NCBI RefSeq assembly: GCF_000332215.1
Contig: NZ_ALWB01000016.1
Span: 1-40,117 of the forward strand
Length of the DNA stretch: 40,117 nucleotides
Direction: 5' to 3'
Source: Pseudanabaena biceps PCC 7429
Lineage (GTDB): Bacteria; Cyanobacteriota; Cyanobacteriia; Pseudanabaenales; Pseudanabaenaceae
Shown: positions 8,157-40,117 of the stretch, piece after piece
Numbering within the stretch: position 1 is the stretch's first letter
Layout of the letters: every line of letters begins with the position of its first letter
Program-made: the position numbers and the translations under genes
The notes under the pieces: generated by a model
Databases searched by the model: none
What the model saw: the letters and a program-made list of their open reading frames with translations, nothing else
What the model was told of the DNA's origin: nothing

Positions 8157-8191
8157 GGGGGAAAGAGGGAAGAGCGAAGAATATAAAAACT

Positions 8192-8232: not shown

Positions 8233-8354
8233 GATGTGGAGGATTAGGAGTTAGTAAACTAAGGTTCATGCTTACAAGATTTTTTGACTTTGGTAAGGGG
8301 GCATTCCATTGAAGGATAAACTATCAATGTTATTTGCTAGGGAGCTTTTTGAAG

Positions 8355-18076: not shown

Positions 18077-19327
18077 TTAATCTAATAAAGACTTTTCGAT
18101 ATCAATCAGCGATCGCCCAATCCCCATCGCACACTCACGCATCTTTGTCGCCAACATCGGCCGTTTATTCATCCCACAATGAGCAAGATCGTTCCGCAAA
18201 TTAGCCAACTCCTTCCACAAAGTTGCGATCGCCCTAGCATTAGGAAGATCTACTAACTCATCAAAATAGCCATTTCCCTTTGATACAAATTCTCGTCCTT
18301 TCGGATGAAACTTATGCCTAAGCCGATGTAGCGCATCCTCAATCGGTTCGCGACTTCCTCTATAGTCCAGAATATCCAAATCAAACCAATAGGCAACCAC
18401 CGAAACCAGCCACTCCCTCGCCAGTGTCAAAGCCTGCACAATATAATTGCGCTCAATGTACCACTCAATCGTCTCCCTCTGAATTTCCAGATTTTGACGA
18501 ATTACATCTTTTTGAATAGGACGCTCTAACGCAAACTGCCCATATTCCGCCACAACGCGATCGCTCAGCAACTGAAAAGGTCTTGCCCTCTGCCCAAAAG
18601 CATCCGCACTACGTTTTAGCGTTGCCTCCAACTTCGATGCCGAAGCCATTACTTCAATCGGTCTAGTAATACTCAACGCCAGAGAAATCGTTTCAATAGC
18701 ACTAGCTGTATTTTCTAAAGACCCACTCAAATCTGACCAATCAGGGCGATCTCGCAATTCTTCCGTAGTCGGCATCTCATTCCTCAACAGATCAACCAAA
18801 GCCTGACCATTCCCCATCTCCGTAAACCTTGTAGTCGCCGTAATCCAATCAATCATCGAAATAAATTCCGACAAATCAATCACAGGCGCAATCTCACCCG
18901 CTCTTAATTCCAACGCCCCATAGTAAATGGACTTAATCGTTACATTTTTCGCCGCCTTGAAATAAGCCGCAAATAGAAATACGAGAAAAGGTAGTGATCG
19001 CAATCCGTGAGTAATGTCAAAAATAACACTTTCCCCTTCAGGAATCTCCGCCGCAATAATCTCAAAAGTTTGCCACATCTCGCTCGTATCAATTCCTGTA
19101 GGAATATCCAGAGCCTGAATCCTTGGGTCGCTGTGAAGATTGACTAATTTTGACCATGTGTTTAGTTTTGCCTTCTCCGTCACACAAACAATCATGCGAT
19201 CGAATTCACAAAACTGCACCAGCGCCTCGGCAAATACGCCGCCTGTATAAGATTGAGCGTGATCGCCAAACCTATATTTTGTTTCTAATAAACCGCGATC
19301 GCCCAAAAAAGTAACAACAGTCGTCAT
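18077..19327 (-). CDS. CARF-HEPN ribonuclease (Csx1/TM1812, TIGR02221-like)
   Basis: This is a 416-residue protein. The N-terminal part (about 1-170) is a CARF domain: TVVTFLGDRG at the first strand, Y28-TGG, MIVCVTEKA, and the signature VIFDITHGLRSLPFL at 101-115. This matches the TM1812/TIGR02221 group. A linker and helical region follow. The C-terminus has the HEPN ribonuclease motif R-x4-H in LRNDLAHCG (R378, H383). Such proteins bind cyclic oligoadenylate made by Cas10 and then cut RNA non-specifically, slowing growth during infection. The His and Arg are present, so it looks active. The ATG is at 19327. It precedes the gene at 17420 and array 3 on the same strand. The Csx3-type protein at 1951 could quench its activator. 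Confidence 0.9.
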   Translation of the reverse strand: MTTVVTFLGDRGLLETKYRFGDHAQSYTGGVFAEALVQFCEFDRMIVCVTEKAKLNTWSKLVNLHSDPRIQALDIPTGIDTSEMWQTFEIIAAEIPEGESVIFDITHGLRSLPFLVFLFAAYFKAAKNVTIKSIYYGALELRAGEIAPVIDLSEFISMIDWITATTRFTEMGNGQALVDLLRNEMPTTEELRDRPDWSDLSGSLENTASAIETISLALSITRPIEVMASASKLEATLKRSADAFGQRARPFQLLSDRVVAEYGQFALERPIQKDVIRQNLEIQRETIEWYIERNYIVQALTLAREWLVSVVAYWFDLDILDYRGSREPIEDALHRLRHKFHPKGREFVSKGNGYFDELVDLPNARAIATLWKELANLRNDLAHCGMNKRPMLATKMRECAMGIGRSLIDIEKSLLD

Positions 19328-23996: not shown

Positions 23997-26510
23997 TTAA
24001 AAATCAAAATCACTGGTGAACGATCGCCTAATTAAATAGCGGATTGATTTATATTCTTGATAGTGGGTGGTTCCCGATAGTTTTTCTTCTAGGCGCAAAA
24101 TCACTTCCTGATTATTGGATTCATCGGCTTTTTTGGTAAGCAGAAATCTGATCTGTAGTTCACGTTCTCTAGGGTTTTCTGAGGCTATATCAAAATTGAG
24201 ATCGTGGGAATCAGAAATTAGATCCCCTGATTGTGTATAAATACCTGCACGGAGATGGCGCGATCGCACTTTATCAGTAGTGGGTTGCACTTGATAAAAA
24301 GTCACTGCTAACTGTCCTGATGTAATCGTTGAGCTACTACCGCGCAGGATCTCTACTTCTACGGAAGATATATCGCTCTGACGCTTTTTATTAATTCTGA
24401 TGATCGGAATAGTTATTTCTTGGAGTGTGGCTCCACCATGCACAAATCGACTACCTGAACCTTTGAGGCGTAATCGGTTGATGGATTTGGGAATACAAAC
24501 TTCAATATCACCTGCTAGACCGAGGCTATTTGAGTCGAAGAATTTGACGCTATCGGTGCGATTGAGGTTTTTACCTAATACAAATCGGCGATCGCGGTAG
24601 AGAACAGTTTGACCTGTGACATCTTGGCTCAGAAAATCACTTTGTTCGAGGTCTTGATTTTGGTAGATAAATCCATGATCGGCGGTAATCAGGATATTAT
24701 TTGCATTTGCCGCAGTTAGCTTTTTCACTAATTGAATTAACTCTTTGAGGGTGCTTTCGGCAGCTTCAAAGGCTTGTCCTTCAGATTGCAATTTGTCGCC
24801 AGTGTGGTCGATGCGGTTGTGATAGATATAGATCGCATCATTTGCTTTCAGGAGTTCGCGGGATTCGTCACGATTGAGGGCGATTAAATCTTCAGCCGCG
24901 ATCGCCCTAGCCCGATCGCCTGCTTGTTTGAGGATTTTGTCACGATTAGCAGTACCGTTGGAGGGCTGTCCATCGACAAGGACATGACCAGTTTCATTGT
25001 CGGCAATAGCTAAGCTAGTATTTGGTAATAGGGCTGCCATACCTAACTGGGTATAGCTGGGCAGCATCGATAGGGCTGGCTCTATGGTCGCTTCATAGCG
25101 ATCTTCTTGGCGGATTAGGCTCAAAAATTCATCGCCAATTTCGTATCGCATGGCATCGGAGATGATCACACAAATTTTGTTATCACGGTTGAGAAATGGA
25201 CGCACCCAACGCTCATAAAAGTTTTTTTGGGAAGGGATCGGTATTGCTTCCCATTTTGGCGCGGCATCGATGAAGGTTTGCCAGCGATCGCTAAGTTTTA
25301 AAAGATAGTTATTGGTGTATAGATTTTCAATCTGATCTTTTAGATCTGAAATCGCTTTACTATTGCTTGAGCGACTGTGATAAATGACTTTGCGATAGTA
25401 CTGGTCTAAACGGAACCAAGTTTGGCTATATTTTTGAATGCCATCGGCGATCGAGTCCATGCTCAAGTTAGCTTCAGCAAGGGTATAGATAAACTGAGCC
25501 GCAAAGTTAATACACTCATAAGCATCACGAAAGCGAGCGTACCAATGGCAGGTGCGGCGTTGATAAATTGTGGAGGTGATATCACTTAGAGAAATTGTCC
25601 TTGCAGTTAGCTGAATTGCTAGGTCGCTGAGAATTTTTTGATCGATTATTAAAAAATAATCTAGCTCGATCAGTTGATGCAAATCGCGTTTATATAAATC
25701 CTGCTCAATATTGAGAATCTCAGCACAGTTATCAGAGAGCTTTTCAAAGGATTCCGCAAATTGACGGCTATCTTTCCATCGTTTTAAGAAGACGATCGCA
25801 TCGGTAGATAGTGAGGAATGGGAAGTGGGAAGTGGGGAGTTATTGGCGAAATTTTGGAAATAGCAATATTTGAAGAGTTGAATTGCGAAGTCTTTGATGC
25901 TTGTTTCTGCGGATATATATCCATAGGTTCTTTGCATTTGTTCCCATAGGAAACCATCTAATCCACAGCGATTAATTAATTTGATTTTGGTATCTTGATC
26001 GTTGGCGTGTTCTGCCAATAGCTGCTCGACGATCGCATCAAGGCGTGGGTCAGCAGATGCACAGACAGCCAACATTTTTAAACGGATCATTCCTTGAGTA
26101 TCATTAGCAGCAAGCAAACGCTTTAAGGAGTCTTTGCGTTTAATAGCCTGAAAAAATTCTGTATGTGCCTGTATGACTTCGGCAAATTCTAGCCCTAACT
26201 CTAAGTCAGCTAATAGCAGAGCTACTTGGTCGGTGCGAAACTGTCCATAGGCTAACTGCACATCGAGTAACCAGTTATCAATATCCGCAGGTTGAGCGCC
26301 TTCGTGGTAGATCAAAAACTTTTGTTTGGGCTGCTCTCGCAAAATCCGATATTTGATTGCAAATTCATTATTTTTTAATTCAATTTTGATGACGCGATCG
26401 AGTTCTAAGCTTTCAAAGTCATCTCGTAATTCTTGTTTGCTGTCATACCAAAAGATAATCCGATCGCGATCGAATTGTTTGATTAAGGCTTGAGCAATGC
26501 GTTCGTTCAT
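23997..26510 (-). CDS. pglZ: BREX phosphatase-domain protein PglZ
   Basis: This 837-residue protein has the alkaline-phosphatase-superfamily core of PglZ. Metal-binding Asp occurs in KICVIISDAMRYEIGDEF near 448-465, a second block in YIYHNRIDHTGDKL, and ITADHGFIYQ near 607-615. The N-terminal half has the type A PglZ start (MNERIAQALIKQFDRDRIIFWYDSKQELRD). PglZ is one of the two proteins found in all BREX systems. It is thought to be a metal-dependent phosphodiesterase and to work with the methyltransferase. A short GA-rich microrepeat lies in the coding sequence (about 25808-25841) and encodes NSPLPTSHSSLSTD, probably a surface loop. It lies 33 bp after the BrxU-like gene, all on one strand. 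All visible metal ligands are kept. Confidence 0.93.
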   Translation of the reverse strand: MNERIAQALIKQFDRDRIIFWYDSKQELRDDFESLELDRVIKIELKNNEFAIKYRILREQPKQKFLIYHEGAQPADIDNWLLDVQLAYGQFRTDQVALLLADLELGLEFAEVIQAHTEFFQAIKRKDSLKRLLAANDTQGMIRLKMLAVCASADPRLDAIVEQLLAEHANDQDTKIKLINRCGLDGFLWEQMQRTYGYISAETSIKDFAIQLFKYCYFQNFANNSPLPTSHSSLSTDAIVFLKRWKDSRQFAESFEKLSDNCAEILNIEQDLYKRDLHQLIELDYFLIIDQKILSDLAIQLTARTISLSDITSTIYQRRTCHWYARFRDAYECINFAAQFIYTLAEANLSMDSIADGIQKYSQTWFRLDQYYRKVIYHSRSSNSKAISDLKDQIENLYTNNYLLKLSDRWQTFIDAAPKWEAIPIPSQKNFYERWVRPFLNRDNKICVIISDAMRYEIGDEFLSLIRQEDRYEATIEPALSMLPSYTQLGMAALLPNTSLAIADNETGHVLVDGQPSNGTANRDKILKQAGDRARAIAAEDLIALNRDESRELLKANDAIYIYHNRIDHTGDKLQSEGQAFEAAESTLKELIQLVKKLTAANANNILITADHGFIYQNQDLEQSDFLSQDVTGQTVLYRDRRFVLGKNLNRTDSVKFFDSNSLGLAGDIEVCIPKSINRLRLKGSGSRFVHGGATLQEITIPIIRINKKRQSDISSVEVEILRGSSSTITSGQLAVTFYQVQPTTDKVRSRHLRAGIYTQSGDLISDSHDLNFDIASENPRERELQIRFLLTKKADESNNQEVILRLEEKLSGTTHYQEYKSIRYLIRRSFTSDFDF

Positions 26511-26543: not shown

Positions 26544-28256
26544 TTAATTTGCCTTGAGCATATCAACTTTCCAGATAGCTGTGGCGATTTTGGCTAGTTG
26601 GGCTTGTCTGGTTGTAATTGCTTTCTCTGTCCAGCTTTCGCTATTTTTAGGAATATCCGATGTGATTTTAAAGCAGCTTTCTTGGAATATCGCGATTTTT
26701 TCAGCATAGCCCTGATTGCCGATCGCCCGATTTGGCTTTTTCTCTAGTGGGGTCATATTGCCGAGGCGATAGACAAACTTGTCTTGATTTTGTTCATCGA
26801 TATGTGACCATGCTTCGGCAGGATTTTCAGGGAGGATATGTTCTAGATTATAGGCTGCACTTTCAAAGTCAAACTCTTGTCCTGAGACTTGTTTTTCTAG
26901 TTGAAAGAGAATGTAGCGCACGACTTTTTTATTGCGGGAATTAGTGGTTTTTAGCTCTTTGTCGGTAAAGGCAGCTTTGAAAACGGCATCATCGGGATAG
27001 ACGGATTGGAGTTCATCAAGGATTGATCGCAAGTTTGTCAGCGCCCCAGAATCGATCTTGTAGGCAACATTGTTATAAACCTGCTCTTGGTCTTGGGTTT
27101 GCAGATTGCAAATGACGTTGTAACGAAATGAGATAACGGCGATCGCCTGTAATAGTTGGGTAAAAATCTGGCGTTGGGTTTCGGCAAATTGGCGATGGGC
27201 TGACATCAGCATTGGCATCGGTTGACGCACATTAAACATTAACAATTGTTCGAGCAATCGCCTTTCTTCTGGTTTCCAGATCGACTCATGGGGATTACGC
27301 AGGGCGGCATAAATTGAGGCGGATCGATCTAGCTCGCGCATGAGGGCAAAGGATTGTTCTTTGGTGGTGACATGGCGGCGAATGGTTTTGAAGAGATCGG
27401 CTTTTCGCACCAGTTTGTGACTGCTATTCCAATAGACGCGCAAAAAGTCAGGGAAGCTCTCGCTGCCTAATTCATCGACGATCCTTTCCCATTTTTCTTC
27501 GAGGGCTTTGAGTTCGGTTTCGTGGGTGTTGCCTGATGCAATTACTGAGAAGAGATAATTTTTGAGCAAGTCAGTGGCAGATAGGCGCACACCGCGAGAG
27601 TTGAGGGTTTCAAATACTTTAAAGGCGTTTAGTTCATCGGTAACGGAGATCGCTGTAAAAAATAGTTTATCGACAATCGTATCGACAAAGATGGCGACGG
27701 CTTCACCGCTTTGTTGCGATCGCGCCGCAATTTTGTCGCGAAACCAGTTAAAGGCTTTGCGGAGTTGATGTTCTGAGGCATTTAAGCCCCGCACGGGAAT
27801 TGGTTCGAGGGGGACAAGATAGGTTTGATAAAAGCGGTTGTTATGGCGATTTAGTTCTAGTTTGGAGCGTGGGATTAGGGAAACGGGGTCAACGTAGCCG
27901 ATGTAACTATTTTGGAGGTTGTCTTTGCGCCTTTGGTTTTTGTCGGGATCGATCGCTTTGTTGACTAGATTTTGCAGATGGGCGAGGGCGGCGAGGATGA
28001 GGATGCTGATTGTGGTAAGGCGTTGTTGACCATCGATGATGTCAAATTGTTTGTTGTTAGAGGATTGCAGGACGAGGTAGCCCATGTAATGCGCCTGTTC
28101 ACCATCTTCGGCAAATAGTCCGAGGATGTCTTGCCAGAGGTCGTCCCATTCTTCTTCTGTCCAAGAGTAGTCTCGCTGAAATGGTGGGACGCGGTAAAGC
28201 AAGCCGTTGCCGAGGAGTTGGCGAAAGGTTTGATTGGCAGTATTAAAGTTCATCAT
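26544..28256 (-). CDS. GmrSD/BrxU-like protein (DUF262-DUF1524)
   Basis: This 570-residue protein has both halves of the GmrSD family. The N-terminal DUF262 shows VPPFQRDYSWTEEEWDDLW, FDIIDGQQRLTTISI near residue 70, and FKVFETLNSRGVRLSATDLL. The C-terminal DUF1524 has the His-containing nuclease motif NLEHILPENP near 470, then RLGNMTPLEKKPN. GmrSD enzymes cut DNA carrying modified cytosines. BrxU, from the E. fergusonii BREX locus, is of this type and complements BREX against phages with modified DNA. Both motifs are intact. I start at ATG 28256, with AGGA seven bases upstream; a longer frame begins at 28313. It sits between pglX and pglZ, so it is part of the operon rather than beside it. 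Confidence 0.88.
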   Translation of the reverse strand: MMNFNTANQTFRQLLGNGLLYRVPPFQRDYSWTEEEWDDLWQDILGLFAEDGEQAHYMGYLVLQSSNNKQFDIIDGQQRLTTISILILAALAHLQNLVNKAIDPDKNQRRKDNLQNSYIGYVDPVSLIPRSKLELNRHNNRFYQTYLVPLEPIPVRGLNASEHQLRKAFNWFRDKIAARSQQSGEAVAIFVDTIVDKLFFTAISVTDELNAFKVFETLNSRGVRLSATDLLKNYLFSVIASGNTHETELKALEEKWERIVDELGSESFPDFLRVYWNSSHKLVRKADLFKTIRRHVTTKEQSFALMRELDRSASIYAALRNPHESIWKPEERRLLEQLLMFNVRQPMPMLMSAHRQFAETQRQIFTQLLQAIAVISFRYNVICNLQTQDQEQVYNNVAYKIDSGALTNLRSILDELQSVYPDDAVFKAAFTDKELKTTNSRNKKVVRYILFQLEKQVSGQEFDFESAAYNLEHILPENPAEAWSHIDEQNQDKFVYRLGNMTPLEKKPNRAIGNQGYAEKIAIFQESCFKITSDIPKNSESWTEKAITTRQAQLAKIATAIWKVDMLKAN

Positions 28257-28289
28257 CCATTCCTGCAAGTGCATACCTATAAACAATGA

Positions 28290-28399
28290 CAAAAGTGGGG
28301 ACGCTGTACCCACTTTTGCAAGAGATCCCCCTCAATCCCCCTTAAAAAGGGGGAAGAAGAAAATTCTCCCCCCTTTTTAAGGGGGGCTGGGGGGGATCT
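28290..28399. repeat. Two inverted repeats between pglX and the BrxU-like gene
   Basis: A 10-bp hairpin (28290-28299 with 28309-28318) is followed by a large imperfect inverted repeat. The left arm GATCCCCCTCAATCCCCCTT is at 28324-28343, and the right arm ending GGGGGGATC reaches 28398. GATCCCCCTCAATCCCCC is a dispersed sequence I remember from many cyanobacterial genomes. The repeat may be a small mobile palindrome or attenuate transcription within the operon. Confidence 0.75.
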
Positions 28400-28415: not shown

Positions 28416-31400
28416 TTAATCATCCGTAGCTTCTAGTCCTGCGATCTTTTTCAGGGCTGCGCCAAATTTACCATAGTTGACTTTTACGCCGTCGTCGAGG
28501 TCGATCGCTAGTTGTTGGCTGGCGAGGGGATAGAGAATATCGCGTTCGTATTTTTCGAGTTCGTCGATGATTTTGCGTAGGTTTTCGATGGTTTTGAGGG
28601 CTTTAGTTTTTTCGGATTGGGTGGCGTTTTGGTCGATGCTGACGGCTTCGAGGTGTTTTTTGTGGGCGGTGAGTTTGGCGCGATATTCGCGGAGGTAGTC
28701 GTTGAGGACGATGCTGGCGGTGTCGGGGCGGTAGCGATGGAGGTAGATGAGGACGTTAAAGCTTCCTTTGGGGCTACTGAATAGCCAATAAATCGGGCGT
28801 TTTTTGTAGCGTTTTACGTGGTCGTTGTAGAAGTCTTTGAGGAAGTATTTTTGTATTGGTTTGTCTAGGGCTTTTTCGATGAAGGTTAGGTTGGTTTGAT
28901 AGTTTTCTTCACCGAAGGTGAGGCGTAAAAATTTGCGAAATTGTTCGCTGATGTCATCGGTAAACCAGTCGCCTTCGAGGATGGGGATGACGTTATCGCG
29001 ATCGGGCATGAAACTGGGATTAGGAATTTTTTGAAGATAATCTTCTATGGTTTCTCCTTGGTTGGCTAAAATGAGTCCTTCTTTATCAATAGAATATCTG
29101 CCAAACATACAGCCTACTGCATAAGAGATGAATTCGCGCATGGTGTCGGCTAGTAGAAGTGTTTCTAGTTCGGCTTCGCTTTTGTTGCTATCATAGCGGT
29201 AGTGAGGGTTACAGGTTAAAGTGATTTCTTTTAATGGAACTTCTGGAGTGAGTTCGTCTTGGAGTCCGTAGGCTTCAATGAAGATACGGTTGTTTTCTTC
29301 TTCGAGGCGTTGCATTTCTAGGGTTGTTTGTTGCCAGTGGTAGCGGAGTTGGGCGTATTTAGTGGAGAGTAGAGAGTTTGAAGTGTGGAGTTTGTTGTTT
29401 TGATTGCTTTCTACTTCGTACTTATCACTTTCTACTTTTAGAAGTGGCAGAGTTGTAAAATCCCATGAAGTTTCGTAAGAATTCCAATCTGAACAACTAA
29501 TATTAATAATATTATCGATTGATTTTATTCTATCTTGGTTAGGATTAATTATTTCTTGATTAATTGGGAATGCTTTAATTTGTCCCACCTCAAAATTAAG
29601 AGTTGGAGATATTGCTGCAACTGTATTAGACATTATTGGAGAATTCATTACTCCAAGTATCGATTTTAAAACTTCTTGACTTAGATTAAAAATGGACATT
29701 CCAGCGTCAGCGAAAATAAAACCTCTTGGAAAAAATCTTAACGAAAAAATACTGCTTGAAACTTTAGACCAGCTTACACTTTCTTGAAAGTAAAAATCTG
29801 TATTTTGAGGGCGCGATTTAGATTTACCACCATTTTCAGTGCCAAAGTTTCTGATCTCATATCCATCATTTTTCCAATTAACGATATATTCTTGATTTCC
29901 ATACCATTTCCTAAATTCACCACCCTTGTTATAAGGAAACCATTTTCTCTTAGAATCTTGAGCTTCTTTTCTATTCTGCAATCCAAATCCGATACTGTTA
30001 TGTTTTACTTCAAACCATAACTTAATAAATCGATCATTGTCAGCCGTTGCTAATCCTTGTCTTGGAGAAGCAAGACTCTCTAATTTTTCTGATGTAGCAA
30101 AAATATCTAGGACTCTCTTACTTACCCAATAAGCGATCGCACTACTAGGAATCTTCTTAAAGTCATCGACAGAAGCCCGATAAATAAGATTGTTTTTCTT
30201 CTTTTCAATGAAAACAAGTTCTTTATCCGCAGACTGTGGCGCATCATTGAGATTAATGTAAGCCCCTAAATTTTTGTGAGGAGAATTTACCAAAACAAAA
30301 GCACAAGCTTGCACAACCTTAGAATTTAAGTCTGGAAAACTATTGTAGCCAATCTGAATTAATGTTGCTATATCTTGTTTTGCAATTAATTTCTCTCGCA
30401 ACTTCTCAAACGAAGACAAAAACATCCAACTTTGCATTGTAACCATAGCCACTAACCCATTCTTGACAGCAAGCTCAAGATTACGCTCCATAAACATTGC
30501 AAACAAATCAGACTTACTATCTGGATAATTATCCTTCACCCAAGCCGACATTCGATTATTCATCCCCTTCCCACCCATATAAGGCGGATTCGCAATCACC
30601 ACATGATACTTAGAACTCAGAAAATCAGCCTGCCTCAACACCCGCAAAACCTTCTCATGAGTCCTGTAAAAAAACAGACTACCTTCCACATTCTTCGACC
30701 GCAAAATCTCAACCATCCCCGCCACATCCGTCACCGTCGGACGGATTAACGAACCAAAATTATTCGACTCCTCAAACTCATGCAAAGTCCGTAACAAAGG
30801 CGCAGTAAAGAGATCTCGCCCCACGAAATCCATATAGCCCTGCACATCATCATCCGCAAAACTCACATTCTCCAACACACAAATATTCGGCTTAATTCCC
30901 TTATTAAAAAACCGCCGATGCTTAGTAGCCTTCATCGTCAACGCAAGCGCCGCCAACTCACCCGCCCGTTCGTCAATCTCAATCCCAAACAAATTCAACG
31001 TCAAAATCTTTTCAGGAATCTCCGCAGGCTCATACCCTTCTTCTTCATAAATTGCATACAACAAATCAAACGCATACACCAACATATGCCCCGACCCACA
31101 AGCAGGATCGCAGATTTTGATATCCTCTGGCTTCGCAATTCGCAGAAAATTTGTTTCCGTCTGTTCGGGAGCAATATAGTATTCCATCTGCTCGATCAGC
31201 CGCGAATTAGGATGATTTAACATCCATAAACGACCCAAAGAATTCTCTACCAAATAACGCACAATCCATTTAGGCGTAAACAACTGAGTCGCCGCAGGAA
31301 TACTTTCGGGCGTAATCTTGCGATTTTTCTTCAACGCATCAAACACCTCATCCTTCTTCTCCGAAATATAAAACTGATAGAGCCAACCGATCGCCTCCAC

Positions 31401-31982
31401 ATCCTTACAAACATCGGGAGTCAACGTCTCGCGGGTATAAGCCAAAATCGAATTGCCCGACAACAAATCATCAGGCATCAAAAGCTCCGTATAGTTGGCA
31501 ATGCGATCAAATAAATAGGGCATCGCCTTATAAAAATGATTACATACCGACACAATCAGCGATCGATAAGCCTCAGTTTGCGGATCGGGACTAGGGCTAG
31601 TGCCATTTAATAAAGCAAAAATGCGATCGCGCACCACCGCATCCGCCACCAAATCCTCATCAATATGCCCCATCTTCGCCTCAGCCAAAATCTCAGGCTG
31701 AAACTGTCCCTCCGCAGGCGACAACACCCCAATCTTCGTATAGCGATTTACATCCATAAACCGCAGCGCACAAAATCGATTAAACCAAACATAAGCCACG
31801 CGATCGATCACCTGTTCCTTAGAACTAGCCTTAATCTCCTTTTCGAGATCGGCGATCGCCTCCCCATATTCCCGCCGCGCCATACTCTCAGGCTGCAAAA
31901 CCAGATTCAAGCGACTAGTGACCTGCTCGATCAAACTACGTCGGGCAAATTGTGCAAATCTTTTGAGTCTTGAGGTGTCCAT
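28416..31982 (-). CDS. pglX: BREX adenine-specific DNA methyltransferase PglX
   Basis: This is a 1188-residue N6-adenine methyltransferase. The AdoMet-binding motif CDPACGSGHMLVYAFDLLY lies near 290, and the catalytic NPPY (VVIANPPYMGGKGMN) near 463, spaced as in large type I/BREX enzymes. The C-terminal half would contain target recognition and a coiled-coil-like tail (KKHLEAVSIDQNATQSEKTKALKTIENLRK). PglX marks host DNA at a BREX-specific site so that unmodified phage DNA is excluded. The N-terminus MDTSRLKRFAQFARRSLIEQV is typical for the family. Coding sequence at about 29361-29440 contains a GA-rich microrepeat giving LKVESDKYEVESNQNNKLHTSN, a probable insertion within the C-terminal part. 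The ATG at 31982 is about 50 bp after the preceding nuclease gene. Confidence 0.94.
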   Translation of the reverse strand: MDTSRLKRFAQFARRSLIEQVTSRLNLVLQPESMARREYGEAIADLEKEIKASSKEQVIDRVAYVWFNRFCALRFMDVNRYTKIGVLSPAEGQFQPEILAEAKMGHIDEDLVADAVVRDRIFALLNGTSPSPDPQTEAYRSLIVSVCNHFYKAMPYLFDRIANYTELLMPDDLLSGNSILAYTRETLTPDVCKDVEAIGWLYQFYISEKKDEVFDALKKNRKITPESIPAATQLFTPKWIVRYLVENSLGRLWMLNHPNSRLIEQMEYYIAPEQTETNFLRIAKPEDIKICDPACGSGHMLVYAFDLLYAIYEEEGYEPAEIPEKILTLNLFGIEIDERAGELAALALTMKATKHRRFFNKGIKPNICVLENVSFADDDVQGYMDFVGRDLFTAPLLRTLHEFEESNNFGSLIRPTVTDVAGMVEILRSKNVEGSLFFYRTHEKVLRVLRQADFLSSKYHVVIANPPYMGGKGMNNRMSAWVKDNYPDSKSDLFAMFMERNLELAVKNGLVAMVTMQSWMFLSSFEKLREKLIAKQDIATLIQIGYNSFPDLNSKVVQACAFVLVNSPHKNLGAYINLNDAPQSADKELVFIEKKKNNLIYRASVDDFKKIPSSAIAYWVSKRVLDIFATSEKLESLASPRQGLATADNDRFIKLWFEVKHNSIGFGLQNRKEAQDSKRKWFPYNKGGEFRKWYGNQEYIVNWKNDGYEIRNFGTENGGKSKSRPQNTDFYFQESVSWSKVSSSIFSLRFFPRGFIFADAGMSIFNLSQEVLKSILGVMNSPIMSNTVAAISPTLNFEVGQIKAFPINQEIINPNQDRIKSIDNIINISCSDWNSYETSWDFTTLPLLKVESDKYEVESNQNNKLHTSNSLLSTKYAQLRYHWQQTTLEMQRLEEENNRIFIEAYGLQDELTPEVPLKEITLTCNPHYRYDSNKSEAELETLLLADTMREFISYAVGCMFGRYSIDKEGLILANQGETIEDYLQKIPNPSFMPDRDNVIPILEGDWFTDDISEQFRKFLRLTFGEENYQTNLTFIEKALDKPIQKYFLKDFYNDHVKRYKKRPIYWLFSSPKGSFNVLIYLHRYRPDTASIVLNDYLREYRAKLTAHKKHLEAVSIDQNATQSEKTKALKTIENLRKIIDELEKYERDILYPLASQQLAIDLDDGVKVNYGKFGAALKKIAGLEATDD

Positions 31983-32045
31983 GTTTTTAGTTGGGAGTGG
32001 GAAGTAGAGAATTAGGAGTTAGGGATTAGGGGCTAGGGGTTAGGG
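31983..32045. repeat. GGGGTTAGGG-type microrepeat
   Basis: The stretch runs TTAGGAGTTAGGGATTAGGGG then CTAGGGGTTAGGG on the plus strand. The right-hand part codes for the last residues of the neighbouring nuclease gene (SNPNP then stop), so the repeat has redefined that gene's end. Confidence 0.7.
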
Positions 32046-32566
32046 TTTGATAAGCGTTGAATTGTCCAATCTTTAAATGTGCGATTCCAACCATCAACGG
32101 ACAACACAATACAATCTTTGACATAATCTCTTTTCCAAGGCTGCTCGCATTCATTGCGAATATTGCGGAGCAGACGATCCTTAAAGTTACTGAGAACACC
32201 TTTTTGAAGCACATCATCAAACGCATCTAAGCCCAACAAAACAATATAAATAATTGGCTTGGTATCTCTTTCCATAAGATGCATATATGTATAAGAATCT
32301 CGTATTTTAGGCGTTAATTCCTCGGTTATAAGCTCATTATTACTTAGCCTAGCTAGATATTTTTGTCTTTCTTTGTCTGGAGTCAAAAAATTTGAGGGGT
32401 CTTTAATTTCTATCAACAGCAAATCTTTCTCTCGCTCGATGATCAAATCCACAAAAGACATTCCTTGTGGTAATCTAACACCCTGTCGATCCAACTCTTC
32501 CCACTTAAGTTCATCTGGAAAGCTAAATTCAAGATCGGCTCTAGTCTCAGCTTTATATAACTTCAT
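32033..32566 (-). CDS. Putative PD-(D/E)XK nuclease in the BREX operon
   Basis: This 177-residue protein carries the core of a PD-(D/E)XK nuclease: Asp40 in MSFVDLIIE, then a strand with E53 and K55 in DLLLIEIKD. A helical region with conserved charged residues follows. No other family is recognised. Its ATG directly follows the stop of the ATPase gene (TAG-ATG), so the two are translationally coupled and likely act as a pair. ATPase plus small nuclease pairs are a recurrent defence design (for example Septu-type or Gabija-type logic), but this nuclease is not an HNH or UvrD-linked protein, and I cannot assign it to either. The C-terminal few residues come from a microrepeat. Active-site assignment is by pattern only. 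Confidence 0.7.
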   Translation of the reverse strand: MKLYKAETRADLEFSFPDELKWEELDRQGVRLPQGMSFVDLIIEREKDLLLIEIKDPSNFLTPDKERQKYLARLSNNELITEELTPKIRDSYTYMHLMERDTKPIIYIVLLGLDAFDDVLQKGVLSNFKDRLLRNIRNECEQPWKRDYVKDCIVLSVDGWNRTFKDWTIQRLSNPNP

Positions 32567-33640
32567 CTACACTCCTAACGCCCTTGATACATCTCTATCG
32601 TAGATTTCGGCAAAAGCGTCAGAGATAGAATTTTGATTAATGTCTTGATAGCGATCATAACTCTCCACAACAATTTCTTTGGAGTCAGTATTTCGATAAA
32701 GACTGTGATAAATCACCTCATCACCTTTACCTTTATCCATCAACAAATCAAGCCATTTCAGCAAAACATAATCATGGGTTGCCAAAATAATTTGCTGACC
32801 ATTACGCGATAGCTCTAGCAAAATCTCGACAAGAATCTGCAATAACTTGGGATTGAGATTAACTTCAGGCTCATCCCACAAGAGTGTCCCGCTACTCCCT
32901 GGTTGAATCGCCCCCGTCTCTAGCAATCTTGCTAAAATGCCAACCTTCCGAAAACCCTCAGCGATCGCATTTGCCGAATATTCAACATTACCCGCCTTAA
33001 AAGTGACATTACCACCACCATAAAAAATAAACCGCCCGCCACAAATTTTTTCGATTTCGGCGATCGCCCATTTAGACTTTTCGTGTAATAACTCTGGACG
33101 TTGAGAAGGCAGATCGAGTAATACACAGATATCATTATAAGTTTCATCAAAAGACAATTCATACCTCTGATAAAGACTGACAAATCCCTTCATAAAATAA
33201 AGAACTTCCTTAGTCGGAATAAAGACAGGCTCTTGACGATATTGTTGATAGTTATGATCTTTTTGAATGGCGATCGTTTGAGAATTATTATGCAAACTAA
33301 TTTTGATGGAGCGATCAAGCGAAAAGTCAGCTTTGAGTTCTGCCTTTTCGCTCGCACCTGTATTGTGCATTTTGCCCACCTTATTCTCTAGAGGCAAGAA
33401 AACTCTTAGAAATCTCTTTGTAAGAAATTCACTTAAATCTTCCTCACTCACCTCTGCGTTATTGTGATCTAGTTTCTTATTAAATAATTGACTACCAGAC
33501 GCTAATCCATACACCGCTTTAAGCAAATGCGTTTTGCCCGTACCATTCTCACCAATAATTACATTAATTTTGGGTGAGAAACCAACAGCTAAGTTGCTGC
33601 GAAAAACCATAAAGTTCTTCATCTCAAGCCTAGTAATCAT
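32567..33640 (-). CDS. ABC-like AAA ATPase (AAA_15/AAA_21 type)
   Basis: This is a 357-residue ATPase with a Rad50/SMC-like head. It opens MITRLEMKNFMVFRSNL, then Walker A INVIIGENGTGKTHLLKAVYG (G30-T37). A middle insertion is followed by Walker B TLLWDEPEVNLNPKL near 250 and the His-switch ILATHDYVLLKWLD near 285. No TOPRIM domain follows, which separates it from OLD nucleases. The ATG overlaps the brxC stop by four bases (ATGA), and its own stop abuts the nuclease start. The ATPase and nuclease are therefore wired into the BREX operon rather than sitting beside it. A role as an ATP-gated partner of the nuclease at 32033 is likely by analogy with other ATPase-nuclease pairs. Key catalytic motifs are intact. 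Confidence 0.85.
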   Translation of the reverse strand: MITRLEMKNFMVFRSNLAVGFSPKINVIIGENGTGKTHLLKAVYGLASGSQLFNKKLDHNNAEVSEEDLSEFLTKRFLRVFLPLENKVGKMHNTGASEKAELKADFSLDRSIKISLHNNSQTIAIQKDHNYQQYRQEPVFIPTKEVLYFMKGFVSLYQRYELSFDETYNDICVLLDLPSQRPELLHEKSKWAIAEIEKICGGRFIFYGGGNVTFKAGNVEYSANAIAEGFRKVGILARLLETGAIQPGSSGTLLWDEPEVNLNPKLLQILVEILLELSRNGQQIILATHDYVLLKWLDLLMDKGKGDEVIYHSLYRNTDSKEIVVESYDRYQDINQNSISDAFAEIYDRDVSRALGV

Positions 33641-36600
33641 ATCGAAATCCTCTTGTTCTGTTGAATCTCAGCCATAAAAGCCTCACGCATCGCTGCCAAA
33701 TAGCGATCCACATCTGCCTCATTTTCTAGCCATACCCGATCAAACTTAACCTGAATTGACTGCTTCGCCACATAAGCGATCGCCTGATTGTCCTTAACCG
33801 ATACTTTGTAAGTACCACCGACTAAACTCTTTGCCGTTGAGTCAGGCTGAACCCGATTAGTCGCCGTCGCCCACTCACTTACCCGCACCATCAAGCCAGC
33901 ATAAGTCTCTTCCTCAAACCGCCGCCGCATATCACGAATTACCGCAATTAGACTTTGGTTAGCGATCGCCGTTAAAAAATTGCTAAAGGGTTGCACAATC
34001 TGAGTCTGTTGTTCAGCACTCAAACCAGTAAACTCAGACATCGCACAAAGTCGAGTTTGTAGCTCCGTTACAGATGTTTTGGCGATCGCGATCTCCTCTT
34101 TCACCTTTTCGGCAACTGCTGCCGAAGCGCGATCGCTCAACACCTTGACCTGCTGCATCCGATTACCCTTAAAGCATTGGCGATCGGCTAAGATCGCCCG
34201 CATCTGCTCGACATCAGTACCAGCAATATAAGCAAAGTTAGACTCCTGAGCCTGCACAAATTTTTGCGCCTGCTCATAAATCTCCCTCTGATTACCATTC
34301 ATAAAGCCCCGAATTGGCGCAATTACCTGCTCTTTCAAGTCCAGCAGATCGTCCTGTTTTTTAGATAACTCCGTTAAATACCAAGCATAGGACTTGCCCT
34401 TCACATCAGAAATCATTGCGATCGCAGGATCGAGGGCTTGCAAAAATGGATATTGCGACACCTGCGAGGCGATCGGCATGAGTAGATTCAATAACTTCTG
34501 AAAAGCCTCTCCCGTCTCCTTACCTAAAGCCTTAGCTTCGCTCATTGTCGGCGACGCATCAAAAAACTCTTGATAAAACTCTTTTAAGTTGCGTACCTGT
34601 GAAGTCGTAAAGTCTATTTGCGGCTCCAAAATCACATTGCCATAGCCACTTGCAGAACGCAAAGCCTTTTCTAGCGCATCCCCTTCCACAATATTGCTAT
34701 CAATCTTAGTGTCTAGCTTGCCCCGCACCGATAACTTGGCGATCTGACAAAGAGTTGCCGCCTCATACCAGCCATAGGGTTTCTTGCGAAAGCGATCGAT
34801 CACCAATTTTAAAGTTGTCCTGATCCCCGTCCGATTATTGCCCTGTATAAAAGCAAGCACCTCCTGCTCCGACTCATCCAACGTAGTCACATCATTTCCA
34901 AATAATCCCTCTTGAGAATTATTCAGCACATTTCCCAAATCATTTTCACTGTAAGAAATTCCCCGCAACATTTTCAAATTGGGATAAGTTCGCTCAATCA
35001 AAGTCTGAAATCCCTTAATAATCCGACTCTGAGCATCTTCACCTCCAACTTCAAACTTTGTCCCTGCCACATACAACTTAGACTGACCGAGCAGAGCCTT
35101 GATCGATTCCTTCAGTTGTGCTTCTCTAGTCCTATTACTAGAAGCCTTGTATTCCAAGATCCGCTTAATCCCCTCCTGCTTAGCGATCGTCACATTCTGG
35201 CGAATATACTTTTCCGTGCGTTTGTACATCATCAGATCGCTCATCAACCGAGATTCCACAGGCATAATCACCAACAACTCATCAAACCCCATACTCTGCA
35301 TCGCCAAAGCAGCTTCATTATCAGCATTTTCATGAAACGGCGTGATCACATTAATTGTTAACTCATGTTCCCTCCCTTGCAGCCGCCCATCTAACTTACG
35401 AGAATACTCATAGTCATAGTTATTTTCAGCATTACGGATCTTCCGATTTTTAATCACATAATCAAAAATGAGCTTTTCTAGATCGTCAGCCAAATCGCGA
35501 AACTCAACCTCTGTATTTTTAATTTCCTGCTCAATATCCTGTTCTTCATCAGTCAAATAAACATACTGTTCCCCATCGCGCTGAATATAGTTTTGCTGCT
35601 CTAAGAGATCTAACGCTTCTTCGATGTCTTTACTCAATTGTGGTAAGTCTTGATTAAACTCATCCAGCATCAACACACATAAATTTCGTAAAGTTGATTT
35701 AAACTCATTAATATACTTGACTAAAAACAGCGTTCTCAGAATACGAATGGCAAGTTGATTATCTAAATTCTGTTCCGCAGTGCGAATCGACTTATAAGCA
35801 CTTGACTTCAGCGCTGTGCGAATTCCTTCAAACATCAAATCAAAGGTAGCCAGCTTTCCAATCGGGCGATCGCAAATCTGAATAGCAACTAATTGAAATA
35901 CCGCCAGCATTGAGCGCTCACCCACAGAGCTATGCTTACCAGTAAAAGCATTATGCTTTGACAAATTTTGGATCGCCGCCTGAAAGAGCGTAAATTGATA
36001 GGGAATAAACGGATAGCAATTAGTAAAATGCTCACAATCTTGAAAATTGCGATAGGTTTGCGAACCATCCGTAAAGTCAAACAAAGTCTTAAAGTTATTA
36101 GCCTGCTCTTGATAAATAGTTGCCAATAGTGGCTTAACCGCCTCGGTCTTAGTGAGAAGACGCTTTTGGATCACCTCAGCAACATCTTGACTGGTCAGCA
36201 CCATCCGATTGTGAAACCGCGCTTGAATCTTGCTAAAGTCATTACTCTGTTGGCGGTTCATTTCTCCCACCACTGAGTCCATATCCTCCTGAGCCGTCAC
36301 AATAATCCAAGCTCTACCCTGACATTTAGTGGTAAGACTCTCCGCGATCGTCTGCAAGTTAGTCATTAACTTTACATTTTCCGCTATGTACTGCCCCACC
36401 TCATCGACAAAGAAATTTAAACGAAAATCAAGACTTTGTTTGTCCAGATAAGCTTTCACCTGATCTGCAAAATCTTCAATCGAAACCCGATACTGACTGC
36501 GATACTTATCTAAAATAGCGATCGCGGACTCAGAATCATTCCCCGTCACCGCCGCATAAGCCCTAGCAATATTTTGCCCTTCCAACAAAGCCTGCTCTCG

Positions 36601-37173
36601 CCCCTTTTGCCAAGTTCTTCCCGCAATCTCCTCATACTTATCTTGAAAACTGGCATAAAACCCACGACTATCAAGATCGCGCTCAAATTGAGCAATATGA
36701 CCTTGCTTGCCATAATAGCCACTCATTTCATCAAATACTTTCACAAATACAGCTAAGAGTGCATCAATCTGAGTCTTACTAATTACGTCAGCCTTTTGGT
36801 CAATATTAAATAAAATGCTTTTCGAGGGAATCGCCACCGCTTTTCTAAGTTCACCGCGCAAGATCTCGTTATCTCGACACTTCCACAAAAACGCTTCTAA
36901 AATTTTCTCCCCATCAACCTCGCGATTTTCCAAAAGCAAAGCCAACATCTTGAGCATATGAGACTTACCAGATCCAAAAAATCCTGATACCCAAACCCCA
37001 TTTGCCCCCTGATAGCCATTGTATGCTTCTAAAAATGACTCAAGCCGCTTTTCCACCTCGTTAGTCAATACATATTCCCGAATTTCTACCCCCAATCGCG
37101 CCTCATCATCAGCCTTAATCACCCCTTCAATAGGACGCTTAATATCTTGTGCAAAAATCGTTTGTAAAAGCAT
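33637..37173 (-). CDS. brxC: BREX P-loop ATPase BrxC
   Basis: This 1178-residue ATPase is the BrxC/PglY family. It begins MLLQTIFAQDIKRPIEGVIKADDEARLGVEIREYV, typical of the family, and has Walker A GVWVSGFFGSGKSHMLKMLA at about 60-75 and a Walker B-like segment FFVDEVGQYIAENV near 250. A long helical region with coiled-coil-like stretches fills the C-terminal part. BrxC is required for BREX defence and for methylation in tested systems; how it acts is not settled. The downstream ATPase gene overlaps it by four bases. It is transcribed about 95 bp after brxB, and that gap has a CT-rich microrepeat (37229-37262). Length is as expected. Confidence 0.94.
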   Translation of the reverse strand: MLLQTIFAQDIKRPIEGVIKADDEARLGVEIREYVLTNEVEKRLESFLEAYNGYQGANGVWVSGFFGSGKSHMLKMLALLLENREVDGEKILEAFLWKCRDNEILRGELRKAVAIPSKSILFNIDQKADVISKTQIDALLAVFVKVFDEMSGYYGKQGHIAQFERDLDSRGFYASFQDKYEEIAGRTWQKGREQALLEGQNIARAYAAVTGNDSESAIAILDKYRSQYRVSIEDFADQVKAYLDKQSLDFRLNFFVDEVGQYIAENVKLMTNLQTIAESLTTKCQGRAWIIVTAQEDMDSVVGEMNRQQSNDFSKIQARFHNRMVLTSQDVAEVIQKRLLTKTEAVKPLLATIYQEQANNFKTLFDFTDGSQTYRNFQDCEHFTNCYPFIPYQFTLFQAAIQNLSKHNAFTGKHSSVGERSMLAVFQLVAIQICDRPIGKLATFDLMFEGIRTALKSSAYKSIRTAEQNLDNQLAIRILRTLFLVKYINEFKSTLRNLCVLMLDEFNQDLPQLSKDIEEALDLLEQQNYIQRDGEQYVYLTDEEQDIEQEIKNTEVEFRDLADDLEKLIFDYVIKNRKIRNAENNYDYEYSRKLDGRLQGREHELTINVITPFHENADNEAALAMQSMGFDELLVIMPVESRLMSDLMMYKRTEKYIRQNVTIAKQEGIKRILEYKASSNRTREAQLKESIKALLGQSKLYVAGTKFEVGGEDAQSRIIKGFQTLIERTYPNLKMLRGISYSENDLGNVLNNSQEGLFGNDVTTLDESEQEVLAFIQGNNRTGIRTTLKLVIDRFRKKPYGWYEAATLCQIAKLSVRGKLDTKIDSNIVEGDALEKALRSASGYGNVILEPQIDFTTSQVRNLKEFYQEFFDASPTMSEAKALGKETGEAFQKLLNLLMPIASQVSQYPFLQALDPAIAMISDVKGKSYAWYLTELSKKQDDLLDLKEQVIAPIRGFMNGNQREIYEQAQKFVQAQESNFAYIAGTDVEQMRAILADRQCFKGNRMQQVKVLSDRASAAVAEKVKEEIAIAKTSVTELQTRLCAMSEFTGLSAEQQTQIVQPFSNFLTAIANQSLIAVIRDMRRRFEEETYAGLMVRVSEWATATNRVQPDSTAKSLVGGTYKVSVKDNQAIAYVAKQSIQVKFDRVWLENEADVDRYLAAMREAFMAEIQQNKRISI

Positions 37174-37267: not shown

Positions 37268-37876
37268 TCAAACCTCATAATCAGCAATATTAAAAGCCCG
37301 ATAATAGCGATCGTCCCGCAGCCTACCAAAAAGCTCAAGAGACGCACCAGACTCTAGCGAGTGGGTGTATTCTCCCGGGAAAAAGATGAGAGTCGGAATT
37401 TGGGTTGCTGTACTTTGGAGATTGTTCAAAATACTATGAGTACGAATATAGGGAAAAACTTCACCAACACCATTCAAGAATATCACGTCAAAATCAGCAT
37501 CTTGCATTTTTTGGGCGATCGCAGGCACAAGATGCGTATCAGGATCGAGTACTCCCTGCAATAACTCCTTCAGTTGTTCCTTAGATACTGAAGTTTCAAT
37601 ATCCATAATTTGCTGCCAAATCCCCCTTTCCTGTAAAAGTGCGATCGCCAAGTCATAAATATTAATCTGTAAAACTCTTACTCCAGACTGCTCAAGACGA
37701 CTCACTAACTGAGATTGTAATTGTTCGATTTCAACCGCATCTTCAGGCTGATATGCACAAATGAAAAAAGGGACTTCATTATTTAGTCCTTGCATTTTTA
37801 AAAATCGCTGACTAGAAATCACTTTATATAAATGCTCCAATCTTTCTGCTACCGACTTGAAATTCTGTTTCACCAC
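37268..37876 (-). CDS. brxB: BREX protein BrxB (DUF1788)
   Basis: This 202-residue protein fits DUF1788/BrxB. The N-terminal helix (SVAERLEHLYKVISSQRFLKMQGLNNEVPFFICAY) is typical, as are DVIFLNGVGEVFPYIRTHSILNNLQ and the C-terminal LIFFPGEYTHSLESGASLELFGRLRDDRYYRAFNI, which closes most BrxB proteins. BrxB is a small core component of unknown biochemical activity, and it always precedes brxC. Here it is the second BREX gene after the HTH-BrxA fusion, with 75 bp between them containing a hairpin (37911-37935). Confidence 0.92.
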   Translation of the reverse strand: MVKQNFKSVAERLEHLYKVISSQRFLKMQGLNNEVPFFICAYQPEDAVEIEQLQSQLVSRLEQSGVRVLQINIYDLAIALLQERGIWQQIMDIETSVSKEQLKELLQGVLDPDTHLVPAIAQKMQDADFDVIFLNGVGEVFPYIRTHSILNNLQSTATQIPTLIFFPGEYTHSLESGASLELFGRLRDDRYYRAFNIADYEV

Positions 37877-37951: not shown

Positions 37952-38743
37952 CTAACCAACTTCAAAATATGGAAACACAAAAATATCTGGATGCGAATTC
38001 TCAGCAAGCTCATTTAGAAGTCTAGGACTTAGTAGAGCAACATTAATTTCGTTTTCAGTCGTTAACAACCCAGCTTGCCGCATCATTCTGAATAAAACTT
38101 GACGAGACTTATCGATTGTTCTTTGACTGACTTTAGCTAACTCTTGATGACATTCTATTTTTTTAGAAAAGAAAAAATTGAAATCTTCATAATTAAGACT
38201 ATTCTTGAGACTCAGATATCTTTCCCTTAAAACCTCTACTGCAAACTCAGCAACAAATTTATAACGGCGACAGATTGCTAACCACAATAAATAACCTTGC
38301 TCCTGAATAGTTGTCTCGGTAAGTAACTCTAACTCGTTTTGACTAAGCATTTTTAATCTAGAACAAACTTCTCCACAGATACGTTTAGTCGTACTTAACG
38401 TCTTAGCTTGCAATAAATTATTCGCAACAACTTTTTCTCGAACCAAATTCCAGTCTCGAATATCAAGGAATAAACTTGCGACAACCAAAGATTCACGAAA
38501 CAGCAAATCTCCAGCAGTAAATGACAAACTATATGTCTTTTTTTTTGCTGTTTGCTTTCCTTGTTGAAGAGATAAGGGTCTATTTAGCTCTATCCATAAA
38601 TCCAACTCATCTTTTTGAAATTTCCAAAAGCGCCCTATACGATGTGCAGGCATTCCATGTTTAGAAATCCATCTATATACTGTGTTACGTCTAATTCTAA
38701 GTTTTTTGCAAATATCATTGGTAGATAGCCAAAAATTTTCCAT
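37952..38743 (-). CDS. brxA: HTH-BrxA fusion
   Basis: This is a 263-residue protein. Residues 1-55 form an excisionase/MerR-type helix-turn-helix (WLSTNDICKKLRIRRNTVYRWISKHG, then AHRIGRFWKFQKDELDLWI). A short Lys/Gln linker leads to a domain of about 195 residues. This starts YSLSFTAGDLLFRESLVVASLF and ends QVLFRMMRQAGLLTTENEINVALLSPRLLNEL, both typical of BrxA (DUF1819). Standard BrxA is about 200 residues, so the HTH is an N-terminal addition. BrxA itself binds DNA. The HTH could regulate the operon or direct the complex; no separate BrxR-type WYL regulator is seen in the operon. It is the first core gene of the BREX operon. Confidence 0.85.
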   Translation of the reverse strand: MENFWLSTNDICKKLRIRRNTVYRWISKHGMPAHRIGRFWKFQKDELDLWIELNRPLSLQQGKQTAKKKTYSLSFTAGDLLFRESLVVASLFLDIRDWNLVREKVVANNLLQAKTLSTTKRICGEVCSRLKMLSQNELELLTETTIQEQGYLLWLAICRRYKFVAEFAVEVLRERYLSLKNSLNYEDFNFFFSKKIECHQELAKVSQRTIDKSRQVLFRMMRQAGLLTTENEINVALLSPRLLNELAENSHPDIFVFPYFEVG

Positions 38744-38819: not shown

Positions 38820-39947
38820 TTAACATCTCTGACAAGAATAAGAACTAGACTGTGAGGAATTGCCACAACTTCCACAATTAGAACAAATATAGAACTGTAA
38901 ACTATTATCTGCAAAACAAGGCACAGCTAGTACATCACGTCCAAATACGCGATCGCTCCAGCCAACTGACCGATCGCTAATTTCAAGATTAGCCCCACCA
39001 AGTTTGATGTACGGATAGTTAGTTTGGCATTGCCCACATCTTTGTAAACCCCAAGTGGTATTACATGATTGACAATGAGCTTCAAAACAATCATTGCCGA
39101 TATTTTCTATATTAATATCAAAGCTATTTGCCGAATAGTTTGCTGGGCAAGTGGGACAGGTTAAGAAAGATTCAAATTCTTGATCAACACTTTCGGGCAA
39201 ATTTTCTAGTTGCCGTAGTCTAACAACCTCTCCCCTAGCCGAATTACCTTTAGCCTCTTCTCTCTTAATCATGCTATGCAAGTTACTGGTGAATACTTTG
39301 CGATTGCTAAGAGAAAGAGGACGTATGAACAGAAGTTGATTGTTTTGGGGACTTTGACGTATTGCGCCAGTCTGCTGAATCGGTTTAAGTAGTTCATCAG
39401 GCAATCGAGATTCTAATACTTTTTTGATGGGATAAGCGCTGTACTTTTGGGAATAAATCCACCACTGAACAGCTCTAGCAACTCTCTCTGTACTCAAAAT
39501 ATCAAAAGGACTCACTGGCAACAAAGCTAACTTGCGATCGCTTTTAAAATTAGAATTGAAATCAGAATTCAGTAAATCATTACCAATAGTATTAAAATAT
39601 CGTCGCAACTTAGGCGATATTTTGGACACATCCTGAGCAGTCCCAAAATAAAGAATAATTGTCCGATACGGCTGTGAATTGGCTTGATCGATTACACTCT
39701 CAAGTAATTTCAATATCTGTTCGCTTGTTTGTTCATCGGGAGATTCTGCTAATTGTGCGACTACCGGAATAAATTTTAAAATTCCTAATTTCTCAGATTC
39801 CAGTTGAATTGAGCCATCCTCTAGCCATTGGAAATTTAGAGATTCAGATTCTTTAGCCGAATCTTGCTGCAAAGAATACGATTGACCGCATTCAGGTAAA
39901 GCTGAATCTGATGAGTAGCCAAATCCGCGATCTCGATCGGTTTTCAT
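38820..39947 (-). CDS. Multi-zinc-ribbon protein of unknown function
   Basis: This is a protein of about 375 residues from the ATG at 39947, chosen because CCAGGTG lies just upstream. Earlier ATG (39968) and TTG (40049) starts exist, but the latter overlaps the IS. The N-terminal half is unrecognised, with an alpha/beta look (RTIILYFGTAQDVSKISPKLRRYF) and no obvious active site. The C-terminal 110 residues hold several CxxC knuckles: CPTC, HCQSC, RCGQC, ICSNC and SCQRC, enough for about two to three zinc ribbons. It is on the same strand as brxA with 76 bp between, so it may be co-transcribed. Nothing links it to known BREX genes. A promoter could lie in the adjacent IS. Confidence 0.6.
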   Translation of the reverse strand: MKTDRDRGFGYSSDSALPECGQSYSLQQDSAKESESLNFQWLEDGSIQLESEKLGILKFIPVVAQLAESPDEQTSEQILKLLESVIDQANSQPYRTIILYFGTAQDVSKISPKLRRYFNTIGNDLLNSDFNSNFKSDRKLALLPVSPFDILSTERVARAVQWWIYSQKYSAYPIKKVLESRLPDELLKPIQQTGAIRQSPQNNQLLFIRPLSLSNRKVFTSNLHSMIKREEAKGNSARGEVVRLRQLENLPESVDQEFESFLTCPTCPANYSANSFDINIENIGNDCFEAHCQSCNTTWGLQRCGQCQTNYPYIKLGGANLEISDRSVGWSDRVFGRDVLAVPCFADNSLQFYICSNCGSCGNSSQSSSYSCQRC

Positions 39948-40023
39948 CAACACCTGGCGTTGTTGCATAAAAAGGGGGTTAGAAGGTAAATTAAGTATTA
40001 AGCAGGAGATGAGACCCCGAAAG

Positions 40024-40117
40024 ATGACAGAGAAATATGAGATCCGCAACTGGTCAGAGTATAACGCAGGGCTGAAACAAAGAGGAAGCCTGACCTTTTG
40101 GATTAGCGAAGAAGTAA
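40024..40117 (+). mobile_element. Start of an IS5-like transposase (cut by window edge)
   Basis: Thirty-one codons from ATG 40024 read MTEKYEIRNWSEYNAGLKQ and continue RGSLTFWISEEV. The pattern R-N-W-x-E-Y-N...RGSLTFW is the usual opening of IS5-family DDE transposases. The catalytic region is outside the window. The inverted-repeat end of the element should lie between about 39970 and 40023, but I could not fix it without the other end. Confidence 0.75.

Follow-up and report, generated by a model that had tools for sequence, protein, structure and literature searches.

A HEC-02 ATPase-nuclease pair between brxC and pglX of BREX-1: one ATPase lineage with exchanged nucleases

An OLD-type ABC ATPase gene and a PD-(D/E)XK-like nuclease gene lie between brxC and pglX of a type 1 BREX operon, a slot that such pairs share across distant bacteria. 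Gene layout and nuclease active site are conserved, the ATPases of the slot form one clade, the nucleases have been exchanged, and the C-terminal tail of the ATPase segregates with the nuclease. We read the pair as a BREX-1-resident HEC-02 module, in which the ATPase would be a sensor with a C-terminal dock for exchangeable nucleases, the whole serving as a backup effector. The probability of this reading is put at about 0.5.

Gene layout and active site of the pair

The window is an entire 40-kb contig, and carries a complete BREX operon on its minus strand. With brxA, brxB, brxC, pglX, a type A pglZ and brxL all present in order, the operon is of BREX type 1. The pair is embedded between brxC and pglX, and a second module between pglX and pglZ. 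The features, from the 5′ end of the operon, are as follows.

37952-38743, minus: brxA with an N-terminal HTH_17 domain (Pfam BrxA E 1e-48, HTH_17 E 4e-15)
37268-37876, minus: brxB (Pfam BrxB E 3e-40)
33637-37173, minus: brxC (PADLOC BrxC PDLC02479, 1748 bits)
32567-33640, minus: ATPase, HEC-02A, an OLD-type ABC ATPase of 357 aa (PADLOC HEC-02A E 6e-114); its body, residues 1 to about 310, is the proposed sensor or regulator
32567-32695, minus: ATPase tail codons, residues about 316-357, the proposed nuclease dock (partial rank correlation scan, secondary structure and exchange boundary between loci L057 and L058)
32033-32566, minus: nuclease, HEC-02B, PD-(D/E)XK-like, 177 aa (PADLOC HEC-02B E 1e-71)
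28416-31982, minus: pglX, methyltransferase (PADLOC PglX PDLC02521, 1477 bits)
26544-28313, minus: GmrSD-family type IV enzyme, BrxU-like, the second embedded module (GmrSD_N E 3e-39, GmrSD_C E 7e-30, HEC-06 E 3e-241)
23997-26510, minus: pglZ, BREX-1 type A (NCBIfam TIGR02687, 960 bits)
21843-23918, minus: brxL with a C-terminal phospholipase-D-like (HKD) domain (BrxL_ATPase E 1e-128, MIT_C E 5e-44 at 539-685)

Besides PglZ, three accessory nuclease candidates are found in this operon: the pair nuclease, the GmrSD/BrxU-like enzyme and the phospholipase-D-like domain of BrxL. For a 409-aa ORF 5′ of brxA (38820-40049), Pfam, NCBIfam and PADLOC gave no family match at the cut-offs applied. Farther along the contig, an RT-Cas1 fusion and Cas2 are flanked by a pair of CRISPR arrays whose repeats are closely related (10595-11650, 11875-14244 and 14904-17150), and the array flanks are duplicated over about 300 nt (10098/14410 and 11596/17114, 92% and 91% identity). 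No CRISPR effector complex was recognised among the window ORFs scanned. The same contig encodes a Csx1-like CARF-HEPN protein (18077-19327) and a Csx3-containing protein (1951-3285), both being parts of cyclic-oligoadenylate signalling, and GCGATCGC-type words occur in the window sequence.

The sequence-only reading had placed the ATPase start over the last four bases of brxC and the nuclease start directly against the ATPase stop, and the ORF coordinates bear out both. At the brxC/ATPase junction, GATATGATTAC, the ATPase ATG shares four bases with the brxC TGA (ATGA overlap), and AAGAGGA lies upstream. At the ATPase/nuclease junction, TTAGGAGTGTAGATGAAG, the nuclease ATG comes next to the ATPase TAG, 0 bp apart and both on the minus strand, with AGGAG just 5′ of the ATG. 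AAGAGGA and AGGAG are Shine-Dalgarno-like sequences ahead of the ATPase and nuclease starts, respectively. The claimed coupling to the BREX transcript is also conserved, as 10 of the 15 slot loci described below have an ATPase-brxC overlap of 1-4 bases. Imperfect TTAGGGATTAGGGGCTAGGGG-type repeats at 31983-32050 extend over the nuclease stop and the spacer ahead of pglX, which makes the last nuclease codons look repeat-derived.

The E-x-K core ascribed to the nuclease is real, and E53 (43/44) and K55 (42/44) are nearly invariant among 44 homologues, as are D26 (44/44), D40 (43/44) and K87 (43/44). HEC-02B (PADLOC model PDLC04220, matching the nuclease that adjoins the ATPase on the same strand) is its sole family match, with no TOPRIM match in PADLOC or Pfam. 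No Pfam model matches the nuclease at all, and no match was found among PDB sequences. Its AlphaFold2 model (pLDDT 91) gave no significant Foldseek match; several PD-(D/E)XK enzymes are among the weak matches, which include EcoO109I, PspGI, Hjc and FokI, none below E 0.05.

The ATPase is covered from residue 1 to 355 by the PADLOC HEC-02A model PDLC04213, and the 44 homologues keep Walker A, a signature-like AEGxRK, Walker B WDEPE, the D-loop NLNP and the H-switch TH. It had been described as having Rad50-like motifs without TOPRIM. The fold and the lack of TOPRIM stand, since Foldseek (E down to 3e-14) shows its AlphaFold2 model (pLDDT 92) to be an SMC/Rad50/PtuA-like ABC head and the Pfam scan found no TOPRIM domain in it. 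By family, however, the protein is nearer to OLD/AAA_21, as its signature departs from LSGGQ; Pfam gives AAA_21 (E 3e-19) and AAA_15. The tail is modelled as one strand and a C-terminal helix at 338-354.

Occupied and empty slots

Most homologues were collected with a single nuclease model, by which slot nucleases of other types may be missed. Genomes positive in this search, with the query genome counted in each sample, were 5 of 386 in the phylum of the window, 17 of 398 in the phylum of an Alteromonadaceae hit and 11 of 395 in that of a Candidatus Adiutrix hit. A class-level protein search gave two further, closer relatives, and a plasmid search gave two nuclease and seven ATPase matches. 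Cyanobacteria are among the nearest plasmid homologues and also among the relatives sharing the conserved slot; with the GCGATCGC-type words, this makes the window probably cyanobacterial. Neither viral contigs nor phages gave a match.

From these, 44 ATPase-nuclease pairs were assembled. The nuclease is directly downstream of the ATPase on the same strand in all 44, with a 4-bp overlap in 29. The brxC-pglX slot of BREX-1 holds 15 pairs across three phyla, including two loci, L027 and L029, at which the pair proteins are identical. The layout is not due to chance, because the same two genes keep the same order at every locus and 15 loci share the slot. Six of the 44 pairs are in other BREX types. 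On a BREX-2 plasmid the pair is between pglX and the next core gene, and pairs are also found in the divergent BREX systems L062, L071, L094, L095 and L099. At L092 (1647-18709) the pair is within an operon of DUF6079, methyltransferase, SNF2 helicase and MTES_1575 nuclease, which is not BREX-1. Near the remaining pairs, no BREX protein was recognised.

The 44 loci rule out a pair unique to its source genome. The proposed check, a search for the pair both within brxC-pglX gaps and as an independent locus, found both, and the suggestion of a candidate two-gene defence module gains support, the pair being a catalogued HEC-02 pair that recurs in the slot and independently of it.

Many BREX-1 operons have no pair. 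Three of them from the cyanobacterial phylum have brxC-pglX gaps of about 8, 10 and 50 bp. In plasmid operons of Sinorhizobium and Mesorhizobium, pglX directly follows brxC, the brxC DNA being 82% and 79% identical to that of L058, where the insertion is seamless and no mobile-element remnant was seen at the junctions. These operons were used as empty-site controls because no matching BrxC was found in three same-genus relatives. In one cyanobacterial sample, the pair occurs in 4 of the 8 genomes that have a BREX-1-type BrxC, compared with 1 of 378 without such a BrxC (Fisher p 4e-7), when the BrxC and pair counts are taken as referring to the same 386 genomes, as judged from genome identifiers. 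The related BREX-1 operons without the pair are counted against the resident-module reading.

Other modules were seen around the slot. On its brxC side, L097 has a Schlafen-like protein (7061-8734) and L029 has a toxin-antitoxin-like DUF433-DUF5615 pair (13202-13974). Incidentally, two loci (L111 2167-6692 and L107 8616-15495) show a disrupted pglX: the gene is split in two in genome G051, with an intact copy in its close relative G233, and a 1096-aa ORF is present between two PglX-like pieces in G018.

Inheritance of the ATPase and exchange of the nuclease

In a tree of ATPase bodies, built on residues up to about 303, the 15 slot ATPases and L060 form one clade with support of 100/99. Repeated independent arrivals of the ATPase in the slot are unsupported, since the slot ATPases are one clade. 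The nucleases of the slot-clade loci, on the other hand, fall in at least four places of the nuclease tree, and for them repeated independent arrivals are required. A single clade of slot-locus nucleases was rejected in the AU test (p 0.002) for the 15-locus group set by gene context; the nuclease sets {L057, L058, L051} and {L097, L027, L029, L060}, which were picked after the trees and L057/L058 had been viewed, gave p 2e-4 and p 2e-9.

Co-inheritance was assessed by distance correlations because the BrxC tree is mostly unresolved. Over 14 slot loci, ATPase-body distances track those of BrxC (rho 0.59) and PglX (0.60), with 0 of 1000 permutations reaching either value under tests that assume exchangeable loci, an assumption that related loci violate; the value for BrxB is 0.50. 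Nuclease distances over the same loci track none of them (BrxC −0.09, BrxB −0.05, PglX −0.07). That the ATPase is inherited along with BrxC and PglX suggests that it is connected with BREX, although part of the signal, and perhaps all of the correlation with BrxC, may merely reflect linkage.

These results bear on another explanation, that HEC-02 is a self-sufficient, WonAB-like abortive-infection pair for which the BREX operon offers only a safe place with good expression, the two being functionally unconnected. Such a passenger would not be expected to show one ATPase clade over three phyla instead of repeated arrivals, or ATPase bodies that track BrxC and PglX when the nucleases do not. It would fit the related plasmid and chromosomal pairs that lack recognised BREX neighbours (L052, L054, L055 and many of L059-L074), and the other effectors that occupy BREX gaps (Schlafen in L097, GmrSD in L100). 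It would fit L060 as well, which belongs to the slot clade but stands alone beside CheW/chemoreceptor-like genes, so that the ATPase is not strictly dependent on BREX. We consider this explanation rather unlikely, but a serious one.

The exchange itself is seen most directly between L057 and L058. Their BrxC, PglZ and BrxL are 93%, 94% and 95% identical, whereas identity between the nucleases is 31%. The two DNAs cease to be similar at about base 4965, close to codon 342 of the 390 in the ATPase gene, and stay dissimilar up to about base 5645 at the nuclease end, after which similarity resumes in pglX; the exchanged DNA is thus the last ~50 ATPase codons and the nuclease gene. The nuclease of L057 shares 70% identity with its counterpart in L100, an operon found in the class of the window. 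The L057 ATPase is split accordingly, with a body closest to L058 (86%) and a tail closest to L100 (68% vs 42%). A second divergent stretch further down PglX is probably its target-recognition part. Likewise, the L097 ATPase has its closest body in L029 (72%), but its tail and nuclease are closest to L095 (60% and 65%), which is of another BREX type.

The same is seen across loci. When the body is accounted for, the tail tracks the nuclease with a partial rank correlation of 0.39 over 15 loci and 0.54 over 34 loci (0 of 2000 permutations each), a relation that was picked for analysis after the trees and L057/L058 had been viewed. Within the slot clade, only residues about 316-357 of the ATPase clearly do so. 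Best tail and best nuclease match coincide at 9 of 15 loci, best body and best tail match at 1 of 15. The tail, as a DNA neighbour of the nuclease, could merely hitchhike if recombination starts in the conserved H-switch region.

Proposed role and comparison with known systems

As a resident module, the pair would have an ATPase that is made with BREX and co-inherited with BrxC and PglX, and that probably responds to some state of the infected, BREX-bearing cell as a sensor. Its C-terminal tail would hold the PD-(D/E)XK nuclease as effector, and tail and nuclease would form one exchange cassette, by which different nucleases plug into the same ATPase. By analogy with WonAB and other OLD-ABC modules in BREX, the ATPase most likely senses infection or BREX failure and switches on the docked nuclease. 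When BREX is inhibited or failing, RNA or DNA would then be cut and the infection ended, so that the pair would probably act as a backup layer. This docking, sensing, target and backup role are what we infer.

We hold more tentatively that BREX-1 has a dedicated ATPase ‘socket’, where a slot-fixed OLD-type lineage would read the state of BREX and take interchangeable nucleases via its C-terminal tail. If so, the effector would be swapped as a cassette, as methyltransferase specificity domains are.

A role as a DNA-cutting arm of BREX, with the nuclease cutting unmethylated phage DNA under BrxC/PglX control, is possible but less likely than that of a backup effector, and we regard it as improbable. 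Translational coupling between brxC and pglX and the conserved PD-(D/E)XK-type active site agree with such an arm, but the pair is optional, close relatives having empty slots, the nuclease shows no co-variation with either PglX or BrxC, and the related WonB stops translation and leaves host DNA undegraded (PMC12137116). The premise behind this proposal, that BREX lacks an identified nuclease, is outdated, as a metal-dependent nuclease activity has been reported for PglZ (PMC12205998). A toxin-antitoxin-like stabiliser, whose nuclease is toxic unless restrained by the ATPase so that loss of the BREX operon is punished, is very unlikely: WonB overproduction is toxic (PMC12137116) and the nuclease follows its own ATPase in 44/44 pairs, but WonB is harmless without WonA, which argues against simple sequestration, and the empty slots of near relatives mean that absence is tolerated.

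OLD-ABC nuclease modules are often embedded in BREX, and evolution here separates their two parts. An ATPase kept with BREX while tail and nuclease are exchanged names the likely contact and predicts working chimeras, making it directly testable whether embedded modules talk to BREX or ride along.

Among known systems, PARIS and BrxU/GmrSD are accessory effectors complementing BREX, like the role proposed for the pair. The ATPase is distantly related to AriA of PARIS (E 3e-20), but the PARIS nuclease AriB is a TOPRIM protein, unlike the pair nuclease. BrxU consists of one type IV enzyme, and the window operon carries such an enzyme separately at 26544-28313. Septu and Gabija have an HNH partner or an ATPase-TOPRIM fusion with a helicase, whereas the partner here is HEC-02B only and the ATPase has no TOPRIM. 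WonAB of Vibrio cholerae WASA-1 has, as here, an OLD-ABC ATPase upstream of its nuclease, which is of the PD-(D/E)xK type (PMC12137116), although it is prophage-borne and standalone rather than BREX-embedded. It aborts infection via translation arrest, for which both genes are needed, and WonB is predicted to bind the C-terminal extensions of WonA (PMC12137116). The H-loop residue is H289 in the pair ATPase, as against H333 for the one mutated in WonA.

HEC-02 itself is the same system, as both proteins are near full-length matches in the same order. It was catalogued from Hma embedding (‘Hma-embedded candidates’, PMC12988326), whereas the present pair is embedded in BREX-1; our literature search found no paper testing it. 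OLD-type ABC ATPases with PD-(D/E)XK nucleases inside BREX were reported in 2026 and proposed as backup effectors (Rakesh and Krishnan, PMC12839542). As in those modules, the ATPase has an ABC head with OLD-type departures and no fused TOPRIM, which a separate nuclease replaces. Given this report and the HEC-02 matches, the pair is not a new kind. The available text of the report describes no slot-specific ATPase lineage, nuclease exchange or tail-nuclease cassette, and it is the evolution of the pair, with a resident ATPase and an exchanged nuclease and tail, that looks new.
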